Shown here: piece by piece, positions 51,916 through 61,915 of the stretch
How positions within the stretch are numbered: position 1 is the stretch's first letter
How the letters are laid out: each line of letters starts with the position of its first letter
Assembly: GCA_005889405.1 (NCBI GenBank)
Contig: VBFY01000059.1
Coordinates: 47,373-111,372 of the forward strand
Reading direction: 5' to 3'
Source: Chloroflexota bacterium
Lineage (GTDB): Bacteria > Chloroflexota > Limnocylindria > P2-11E
DNA: 64,000 bases
Made by a program: the position numbers and the translations under genes
Notes under the pieces: generated by a model
What the model saw: only the letters and a program-made list of their open reading frames with translations
Database searches by the model: none
Told to the model about the DNA's origin: nothing

Positions 51916-52518
51916 CTACTGCGCCTTCGCGATCCCCTCGCGGATGACGCCCTGGTCCATCACCTCGCCGCGCTCGACGTGCCGGACGACGCCCTGCGCG
52001 TCGATGAAGAACGTGACCGGCAGACCGACGACGCCGTAGCGGCGCGTCGTCTGCCCGTCGAGATCGAGGATCGGATCGAGACGGTCGAGCGCCAGCTGAT
52101 CGAAGAACGAGCGCGCCCGCGCGCCGTCCTCCTGCAGATCGACCGCGAGGAAGACCGCATCGCTGCCCCGCGCGACGCTGTTCAGGGCGGGCATCTCGGT
52201 GCGGCACGGTTTGCACCAGCTCGCCCAGAAGTTCAACACGACCACCTTCCCACGCAGGCTCGCGAGCGTGCGCGTCGAGCCGTCGGGCGCGTTCCACTCG
52301 AAATCCGGCGCCTGCGCGCCGATGCGCCCGGCCATGTTCGGACCGTCGATCTGCCGGCGGATGACGCCGACCTGCGTCGGTCCGGCCGTGGCCTGGTTCA
52401 TCGGGAGCGACGGCCATACCAGCGCGGCCAGCGACGCGAGCGCGATCGCGCCGACGACGATGGCGGTCACGACGCGCGGCATCCGCGGTCGGTAATCCAG
52501 GGTGACATCTTCGGTCAC
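51916..52518 (-). CDS. TlpA/ResA-like membrane-anchored thioredoxin
   Basis: LRGKVVVLNFWASWCKPCRTEMPAL; YGVVGLPVTFFID. Confidence 0.95.
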   Translation of the reverse strand: MTEDVTLDYRPRMPRVVTAIVVGAIALASLAALVWPSLPMNQATAGPTQVGVIRRQIDGPNMAGRIGAQAPDFEWNAPDGSTRTLASLRGKVVVLNFWASWCKPCRTEMPALNSVARGSDAVFLAVDLQEDGARARSFFDQLALDRLDPILDLDGQTTRRYGVVGLPVTFFIDAQGVVRHVERGEVMDQGVIREGIAKAQ

Positions 52519-52627
52519 GTGAGTAGCCTAGGGCGGTCCCAAACCGCTCCTCGTGGCTTTCGCGTTGGTGCGACCACTTCTGGGCGGTGGCATAGTCAGC
52601 CGGACGATCAAAGCGAGGAGGACGGCC

Positions 52628-52702
52628 ATGGCCTGCGCCTGCGGAGCGTGTTGCGGCCAATGCTGTTCTGGAACGAAGACCCCGAAGCCACAACCGAAGT
52701 AG
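52628..52702 (+). CDS. Cys-rich 24-aa microprotein MACACGACCGQCCSGTKTPKPQPK (not in the ORF track)
   Basis: AGGAGG Shine-Dalgarno 6 nt before ATG; 6 Cys in 24 aa; followed by terminator-like hairpin 52726..52753. Confidence 0.65.
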   Translation: MACACGACCGQCCSGTKTPKPQPK

Positions 52703-52725
52703 CCACCGCGACTGCTGGACCATTG

Positions 52726-52753
52726 GAACGCGGCCCGGTCGGGGGCCGCGTTC
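52726..52753 (+). terminator. Rho-independent-type terminator hairpin after the Cys-rich microprotein
   Basis: GAACGCGGCCC-GGTCGG-GGGCCGCGTTC followed by TTCGTTT. Confidence 0.7.
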
Positions 52754-52758
52754 TTCGT

Positions 52759-53247
52759 TTGACCATATCCACGGCCAAGAGCGGGGGTTTGGTGTTGCTC
52801 GCCGCGGTCCTCCTGGGTGCCTGCGCCGGCGGCGCGGGAGCGAACACCGCACACATGATCGCGTTCGTGGACGTCGCGTCGGCCGCGACCTCGCGTCATG
52901 TAGGGGGTCCGGCGCTCATCGTGGGCACGTCTGACGGCGCGCGGGCAACGATCGCATCCCTTCGGCCCGGGCTGACCCGACTCGACGGCGTCGTCCTCGT
53001 CGCGGTGTTCGAGGGACAGCAACCCACGGGTGGTTTCAGCATCCGCGTCACCAGGATCGAACGCGACGGCGGTAGGCTGATCGTGCGCGCCGTATTTGGA
53101 AAGCCACTGGACAACTCGACCAACACCGAAGCGCCTACCTCGCCGACCCACATCGTGTCCATTGCGGGCTCGGAGATCTCCGGTGTGCGCGAGGCCGTAT
53201 TGGTCGACGAAACGGGGGCGGAGCGAGCGCGCGCGAACCTTACCTAA
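52759..53247 (+). CDS. PrcB-like domain lipoprotein (start tentative)
   Basis: Lipobox LLGAC; VVLVAVFEGQQPTGGFSIRVTRIERDGGRLIVRAVF...PTSPTHIVSI. Confidence 0.6.
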   Translation: MTISTAKSGGLVLLAAVLLGACAGGAGANTAHMIAFVDVASAATSRHVGGPALIVGTSDGARATIASLRPGLTRLDGVVLVAVFEGQQPTGGFSIRVTRIERDGGRLIVRAVFGKPLDNSTNTEAPTSPTHIVSIAGSEISGVREAVLVDETGAERARANLT

Positions 53248-53271: not shown

Positions 53272-53454
53272 CTAGTGCATCATCGGCATATCAGGCATGT
53301 GCATGGCGCCGCCCATCATTGGCGAACAGCTCGCCGCCATGGCGACGCCCATGAAGACCCACGGGATGAGCGTCGCGACGATCAGCACAACGAGAACTGC
53401 GAGTAGCACCCGCGCCCAGATAGGCCAGGATTCCTGTGCGGTCTGCTGGATCAT
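53272..53454 (-). CDS. Single-TM microprotein with Met/His-rich tail
   Basis: MIQQTAQESWPIWARVLLAVLVVLIVATLIPWVFMGVAMAASCSPMMGGAMHMPDMPMMH; GAGGTGG Shine-Dalgarno. Confidence 0.7.
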   Translation of the reverse strand: MIQQTAQESWPIWARVLLAVLVVLIVATLIPWVFMGVAMAASCSPMMGGAMHMPDMPMMH

Positions 53455-53474
53455 CGGTCCACCTCGTCTTGAAT

Positions 53475-53945
53475 CTAACCTGGCGGCAGCGGGGTCTTCG
53501 CGGACGGGCCACGGTCGCCCCAGCGCTGATCGATGGTCGCCCGGATGGTGTTGAGCGCGATCCCTTGCTTTCGGAGTTCCATCACGTCACGCGTGATGCC
53601 GGTGCAGATATCTCAGCCGAAGGACATCGCGTCGAGGCGGATCCGCCCATCGGCATAGACCTCCCGCACGTAGCAATCAAAGTTCGACGTGTGGCCGGCG
53701 TTTACACAGCCGCAAAAGCAGGGTATGTACTGCAAAACCGCGTGGTTCGCGGCCGCGTATTCATAGAGCTCCTGCGTCGCGGCGGGAAGCTGGCGAAACT
53801 CGTCGGGCCATTCATCCTTCGCCGGATCGGCGTAGAGCTGGACCAACGCGTCTCCGGGACGGCTTGGTCCGGCCTCACCGCAGGCAGAGACAAGGAGGGT
53901 ACTTCCCGCGAACGGGAGAAAACGACGCCGCCGCACGAGCTCCAT
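53475..53945 (-). CDS. PCYCGC/CYCXC-family lipoprotein, candidate selenoprotein with in-frame TGA at 53613..53615
   Basis: LQYIPCFCGCVNAGHTSNFDCYVREVYADGRIRLDAMSFG-U-DICTGITRDVMELRKQGIALNTIRATIDQRWG; family similarity continues on both sides of the TGA, U replaces the first Cys of GCxxC. Confidence 0.82.
53580..53598 (-). promoter_or_regulatory. Candidate bacterial SECIS hairpin
   Basis: CATCACG-CGTGA-CGTGATG, perfect 7-bp stem starting 14 nt after the TGA; apical loop starts after 21 nt and has G at loop position 2. Confidence 0.65.
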
Positions 53946-53984
53946 GGTAGGCGCGAGCCGGGGCGCCGAAGATACATTTCCGAC

Positions 53985-61237: not shown

Positions 61238-61915
61238 CTAGAGGAAGGTGAAGAGCTGCGGCAGCCGCGCGAACTGCCCCGTCACGAGAACCAGCCCCAT
61301 CACGATGACCAGCGTCCCGCCGGCAAGGTTGAGCACGCGGATCCCGCGCGCGAGCACGCGCGTGGCGCGTCGCGTGCCCCCGATGCCAGCGGCGATGACG
61401 AGGAACGGGACGCCGAGACCGAGCGCGTAGGCGAGGAGCAGCACCGCGCCGGATGCGAGATCCTCGTTGAGTAGCAGGTCGAGGATGAGCGCGAGGTAGG
61501 GACCAACGCAGGGCGTAAAGCCGACGCCGAACGCGACTCCGATGAGAAAGGAGCGCGGCAATCCGCTCGTGTTGCCCTCGAGGCGCAGATCGAGCTCGCG
61601 CATGAGGAACGGGATCGTGATCAGGCCGACCATGTGCATCCCGAGGACGATGAGCAGGATGCCGCCGATCCGCTGCAACCAGTAGACGAGCTCGCCCGCG
61701 AGCGCGCCCACGAGCGCGATCGCGACCCATAGGAGCGTGAACACGACGCTGAAGCCGAGGACGAACGCGAGGGCGTGCGCGACCGTCCGCAGCCGCTGCG
61801 TCCCCGCAAGCGCGGCCTCGCCGGCCATGTTCACCAGGAAGGCGGGCACCAAGGGAAGGACGCAGGGCGAGAGGAACGAGAGGATGCCCGCGCCGAACGC
61901 GATCGCGACGTTCAC
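61238..61915 (-). CDS. ccdA: CcdA-type cytochrome c biogenesis / thiol-disulfide transporter
   Basis: ILSFLSPCVLPLVPAFL; GVAFGVGFTPCVGPYLA. Confidence 0.93.
   Translation of the reverse strand: MNVAIAFGAGILSFLSPCVLPLVPAFLVNMAGEAALAGTQRLRTVAHALAFVLGFSVVFTLLWVAIALVGALAGELVYWLQRIGGILLIVLGMHMVGLITIPFLMRELDLRLEGNTSGLPRSFLIGVAFGVGFTPCVGPYLALILDLLLNEDLASGAVLLLAYALGLGVPFLVIAAGIGGTRRATRVLARGIRVLNLAGGTLVIVMGLVLVTGQFARLPQLFTFL

Follow-up and report, generated by a model that had tools for sequence, protein, structure and literature searches.

A conserved 24-residue, six-cysteine gene shared by a few soil Chloroflexi encodes a candidate metallothionein-like peptide

Introduction

Can 24 codons with their own flanking signals be a gene in their own right and, if so, what might so short and cysteine-rich a product do? 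We addressed this question for a locus in the window, by which we mean the whole 64,000-nucleotide (64 kb) stretch of DNA analysed here. An earlier note, made from the letters of the window, had described a free-standing cysteine-rich microprotein gene and suggested a metallothionein-like binder of metal or persulfide, or a short precursor peptide.

Results

A complete single-gene unit

Direct reading confirmed the AGGAGG-ACGGCC-ATG, the six-Cys ORF of 24 codons and the TAG that the earlier note had reported. The ORF lies at 52628-52702 on the plus strand (ATG 52628-52630, TAG 52700-52702) and encodes MACACGACCGQCCSGTKTPKPQPK, in which six cysteines fall within eleven residues in the arrangement C-x-C-G-x-C-C-G-x-C-C. 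The gene and its flanking signals are as follows.

52587..52596, plus strand: candidate -10 region GTGGCATAGT, a putative promoter element from alignment of upstream regions
52616..52621, plus strand: Shine-Dalgarno AGGAGG, read directly, with spacer ACGGCC (6 bases) to the ATG
52628..52702, plus strand: 24-codon gene MACACGACCGQCCSGTKTPKPQPK with TAG; six members in five genomes, invariant Cys, differences mainly synonymous
52725..52762, plus strand: terminator-like hairpin (12 pairs) with a T-containing tail, from terminator scan, folding and alignment with the copy in genome G159

A hairpin does stand between the TAG and TTCGTTT as first noted, but what had been given as 11 bp folds as 12 pairs, 11 Watson-Crick and one G-U, between arms 52725-52736 and 52743-52754; the letters directly 3' of it are TTCGTTTG. 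The fold of 52702-52762 reached -28.8 kcal/mol (z -1.8 against shuffles), and a terminator scan returned one terminator-like site at the hairpin, with 0.1 expected. The T tract after it is short (TTCGTTT) and overlaps a possible TTG start (52759) of the next ORF, which carries a PrcB_C domain. Alignment of the upstream regions of the window, G159 and G160 copies centred on GTGGCATAGT, GTGGCATAGT and GTGGCGTACA, respectively, with similar spacing to the ATG in the window and G159; this element is possibly a -10 region. No site upstream of the window gene passed a sigma-70 consensus scan.

This is the sole ORF of 14-60 aa with at least five Cys in its first 14 codons across the 64 kb. Scored in the same way, 60 first-order Markov random windows matching the dinucleotide make-up of the window gave 0.03 ORFs per window with at least five Cys, and none of the 60 held one with at least six. 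At 24 aa the gene is below usual annotation length limits. Profile searches of the peptide against Pfam, NCBIfam and PDB found no match, as did Rfam over the window, and no signal peptide or leader segment was seen in the 24 residues. Together these parts form a complete one-gene unit that encodes a 24-residue protein.

A family confined to one clade

Among 40 relatives searched, genome G016 carried an ORF of 68% identity and G004, from the same genus, carried another; the source genome itself had a further copy on a different contig (C57). When 177 genomes of the class were scanned for the Cys spacing, G159 and G160 each gave one more member, so that six members, including the paralogue, are present in five of the 28 genomes of the same taxonomic family, all of them draft MAGs of soil Chloroflexi. 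The sequences are MACACGACCGQCCSGTKTPKPQPK (window), MACACGNCCGACCSSTTTKPTTPKPK (C57), MACKCGNCCGACCSSTTTKPTTPKPK (G004), MACACGACCGKCCSGIIITETKPKPSK (G159), MACACGACCGKCCSGVTNETKPKPSK (G160) and MACVCGACCGKCCSGASTETPKTNK (G016). Common to all six is M-A-C-x-C-G-x-C-C-G-x-C-C-S followed by a Thr/Lys/Pro tail, with M1, A2, C3, C5, G6, C8, C9, G10, C12, C13 and S14 invariant; every member starts with ATG and has Lys as its final residue before the stop. A family profile scored the members at E 1.8e-13 to 5.7e-11 and the next-best background at 0.02.

The pattern ATGNNNTGYNNNTGYGGNNNNTGYTGYGGNNNNTGYTGY, searched against one genome per species (85,462 species), occurred in eight places, of which four were real and all in Chloroflexi MAGs. 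Members in this collection are all from soil-type 'Chloroflexi bacterium' MAGs (recorded depths, for example, 20cm, 30cm and 40cm). The remaining four places (Bacteroidales, Clostridia, Novosphingobium, Poribacteria) were rejected for lack of a fitting tail, low complexity or long unrelated frames, and the exact Cys pattern gave no convincing member outside the clade across these species. Nor did the profile yield a convincing member outside the taxonomic family among 399 sampled genomes of the phylum; its four weak out-of-clade matches (E 0.001-0.003) lay in open frames of 64-264 aa, and three of them, the fourth being L029, were examined and proved not to be ORFs of this type. Further candidates were discarded: one match on a viral contig was a Cys/Gly repeat frame inside a Gln-rich-type repeat region, one in G056 was a Gly/Cys low-complexity frame without the ATG, and weak matches with one internal TGA (G021, G011, G007) were background, those in G021 and G011 being out-of-frame pieces of other genes. 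Plasmids gave no member by tblastn with 26 residues, a search insensitive at such length, and the peptide was not found in G003. Presence in only 5 of 28 genomes implies that the family does not serve a core function.

Selection on the protein

We compared the 14-codon core in three disjoint pairs (C57-G004, G159-G160 and window-G016). Third codon positions held 16 of the 20 nucleotide differences, giving P = 2.5e-5 under a null of one third, a value that is approximate because this null ignores base composition. Between G159 and G160 the core differs by six silent changes and no replacement. Cys codons alternate between TGC and TGT among members, and in both the Lys/Pro tail and the inter-Cys residues the amino acids are kept while third positions are free. 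Because the differences are mostly silent, the peptide is very probably translated and under purifying selection. The earlier note had proposed looking in relatives for conserved Cys spacing and synonymous bias; both were found, and frame and Cys positions are kept in all six members. Comparison of these sequences thus points to a genuine 24-residue six-Cys gene, retained in a few soil Chloroflexi. Its description as free-standing and cysteine-rich is upheld by a family that is independently conserved, keeps its Cys spacing fixed and is under purifying selection.

Flanks of the copies

The gene is a small self-contained unit that occurs in varied surroundings and twice in one genome. A terminator hairpin of its own, as first claimed, stood in three of the five copies folded: that of the window, that of G159, a related hairpin at the matching position in which one pair has changed in a compensatory way (C-G to T-A) and there is one mismatch, and that of G016, which is different and very strong (z -4.2). 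It did not hold for the G160 and C57 copies, where folding gave no clear terminator.

The copies fall into two subfamilies that differ in their flanks. In G016 and G159 alike, the gene has a 58-aa membrane protein on one side and a DNA-binding-type ORF on the other, in corresponding positions. The 58-aa protein (L043 6603-6779, L042 7479-7655) has a single TM segment and a Cys-Gly tail; it is adjacent to the gene in G016 and 800 bases off in G159, whose copy had no Pfam match over cut-off. The C57 and G004 copies share a block of ~750 bases (89% identical), made up of the peptide gene and a divergent ORF, which stands in different surroundings in its two genomes and is possibly a mobile unit. 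That ORF is HNH-endonuclease-like (L041 13798-14300, minus strand; L004 817-1300, minus strand; HNH_3 E 5.5e-4, below cut-off). Upstream of the paralogue, at L041 13410-13652, are three copies (one 85%) of the 13-nt AGACCATTGCTCT, one of them inside sequence resembling the 5' half of a tRNA. An integration site suggested by this tRNA-like fragment and the repeats was dropped; ARAGORN finds no tRNA.

Gene neighbourhood and the metal link

Around the window copy, the TlpA-like thioredoxin and the Met/His-rich microprotein that the earlier note had placed there were both identified, together with other genes.

51916..52518, minus strand: TlpA-like thioredoxin with WCKPC active site (AhpC-TSA E 1.4e-21, Redoxin); divergent, about 110 bases away
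52759..53247, plus strand: lipoprotein-like protein with PrcB_C domain (E 1e-11); downstream neighbour
53272..53454, minus strand: 60-aa protein with one TM segment and a Met/His-rich tail; G003 and G160 have homologues
61238-61915: DsbD_TM/CcdA-type protein (Pfam)

A cytochrome c and a PCYCGC-type selenoprotein are also nearby, and in G004 a homologue of the PrcB_C protein is likewise close to the family member. The PCYCGC-type ORF (about 53470-53950, minus strand) has an in-frame TGA near 53612. Of 11 homologues in the taxonomic family, 8 keep this TGA and the remaining three have Cys in its stead (SFG-U-DICTGITRDV); the G160 homologue matches PF13798 (E 8.7e-13), and the genome encodes SelA (E 3.8e-131) and a tRNA-Sec above gathering score. 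This pattern supports a genuine selenoprotein, as had been suspected. Homologues of the 60-aa Met/His protein in G003 and G160 adjoin the PCYCGC-type selenoprotein, and in G003 the gene is preceded by a DUF4396 gene and a P-type ATPase-like ORF; the protein is a candidate copper-handling membrane microprotein.

The C57 paralogue is beside a YHS-domain protein (E 3.7e-8) and an ArsP_1 permease (E 1.3e-69), the latter scoring E 3.8e-13, below cut-off, against the NCBIfam SO_0444 Cu/Zn efflux model. Both copies in the source genome are thus near metal-linked genes, whereas three of the four other copies are not: no recognised metal gene is next to those in G016, G159 and G160. The genes next to the window copy include no recognised metalloregulator. 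A metal-linked setting therefore holds for two copies, and the link to metal genes is suggestive only.

Proposed function and alternatives

We read the product as a free-standing cytosolic thiolate-cluster (metallothionein-like) peptide that would buffer a soft metal, most likely Cu(I) or Zn, at a probability of roughly 0.6. Metallothionein-type composition may be taken as a short protein with about 20-30% Cys in CxC, CC or CxxC and few or no aromatics; here 6 of 24 residues (25%) are Cys, with a CxC, two CC and no aromatic residue, and all six members are alike. Without a signal peptide, a 24-residue protein would stay in the cytosol. Its six thiols (CxC, CxxCC, CxxCC) suggest a chain that is disordered until wrapped round soft metal ions, most likely Cu(I) or Zn(II), in a small metal-thiolate cluster, and that would buffer free cytosolic metal like a very small metallothionein, while the Lys/Thr/Pro tail would remain flexible and maintain solubility. 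For the window copy Cu is slightly preferred because of its neighbours, the Met/His-rich membrane microprotein with its G003 homologue by a P-type ATPase-like ORF, the TlpA-like protein and the PCYCGC protein. Against a metallothionein count the copies in G016, G159 and G160 with no recognised metal genes beside them, the window copy with no recognised metalloregulator, and the presence of the family in only 5 of 28 genomes; further, six thiols are fewer than in described bacterial metallothioneins, and the sequence would also suit a thiol or persulfide buffer.

The peptide might instead be a thiol-redox or persulfide/sulfur-carrier partner of the nearby thioredoxin-like and CcdA-type proteins, as the divergent TlpA-like gene and the DsbD_TM/CcdA-type protein at 61238-61915 would allow. 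TlpA and CcdA, however, act outside or across the membrane and the peptide has no signal; moreover, other members are not beside thioredoxins and no sulfur-transfer gene was recognised next to the peptide gene, so that we regard such a role as unlikely.

It is a long shot that the ORF is a leader peptide or attenuator, in which Cys or metal would be sensed during translation, through the Cys codons or, as in CruR, through metal bound by the nascent chain, and the hairpin would control the next gene. Six Cys codons, a Shine-Dalgarno and a hairpin just before the PrcB_C ORF, whose possible start overlaps the hairpin tail, would fit this arrangement; a GCGGCC within the ORF could pair with a hairpin arm, and there are precedents in CruR (PMC9426467) and in mycobacterial polycysteine leaders (cited in PMC7790235). 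Such a leader would be upstream of, and co-directional with, its regulated gene in all members, but the next downstream gene is convergent in G016 and G160, and downstream genes vary (PrcB_C, DNA-binding-type ORF, YHS, hydrolase-like), none being a recognised sulfur-assimilation gene. About 60 bases separate the last Cys codon from the hairpin, and ORF and hairpin folded together give an MFE structure that does not surpass shuffles (z -0.35) and in which the hairpin is retained. The absence of an adjacent co-directional cistron in G016 and G160, and the conservation of the tail and inter-Cys residues as protein with free third positions, lead us to disfavour attenuation.

A RiPP precursor or secreted Cys-rich peptide is very improbable, even for a small, Cys-rich product with its own Shine-Dalgarno and hairpin. 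The short precursor raised in the earlier note would call for leader plus core and a modification enzyme nearby; the peptide has no leader or signal, its conserved block is the N-terminal Cys part, and none of the neighbours read or Pfam-scanned around the copies was recognisable as a modification or export enzyme. Finally, a chance ORF in a GC-rich intergenic region, which shortness and absence from most relatives might suggest, is refuted by comparative evidence, since six members in different flanks show synonymous bias and 0 of 60 random windows held an equivalent.

Returning to the metallothionein-like reading, the family is new and clade-restricted and would, we infer, act by binding metal. 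The chances are about even that it is a bacterial metallothionein family not described before, which arose within one lineage of Chloroflexi; its 24 residues and six Cys (CxCGxCCGxCC) would then place it with the smallest natural metallothioneins that genes encode. Because genes this short escape gene finders, bacterial metal-buffering peptides are probably undercounted. A natural 24-residue peptide with six fixed Cys offers a synthesisable test case for how short a sequence can be and still form a functional metal-thiolate cluster. As the family is scattered patchily through one soil clade, the gain and loss of such a function can be traced.

Comparison with known systems

Our search of open-licence papers found no description of such a peptide in Chloroflexi. 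In being very short and Cys-dense with CxC, it resembles the fungal Cu-metallothioneins (Neurospora crassa / Agaricus bisporus, Binz-Kagi family 8), which have 26 aa and 7 Cys in the pattern X2-CXC-X5-CXC-X3-CXC-X2-C (PMC4755600). The fungal proteins are eukaryotic, however, and have no CC and no Lys/Pro tail of this kind, whereas the peptide departs from the seven-Cys pattern as CxCxxCCxxCC, with six Cys (CxC-G-x-CC-G-x-CC) and two CC pairs.

SmtA/BmtA proteins (Pfam PF02069, Metallothio_Pro) are likewise bacterial, small and Cys-rich; the peptide is shorter than their 51-position model and did not match it, Pfam returning 0 families at E up to 10. PF02069 is absent from the source genome, with the Synechococcus elongatus control positive. 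A Pseudomonas member of this group has a Cys9His cluster, and Pseudomonas metallothioneins are also without metal-responsive regulators (PMC7387436), which makes it a weak criterion that no adjacent SmtB-type metal repressor was recognised among the window-copy neighbours.

The copper-sensing uORF CruR (DUF2946) and the mycobacterial polycysteine leaders share with the peptide a Cys-containing ORF and a possible upstream position. CruR (PMC9426467) has 145 aa, a RAPP arrest motif and predicted export, and its ORF stands first in an operon, whereas the peptide is 24 aa long and no one gene consistently follows it. The Cu metallothionein MymT of M. tuberculosis (4.9 kDa, PMC7558416) is similarly a small unannotated Cys-rich ORF, about twice the size of the peptide. 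Described bacterial metallothioneins are larger than 24 residues (PMC7387436, PMC7558416), and judged by its sequence the peptide is most likely one of the shortest gene-encoded metallothionein-like candidates.
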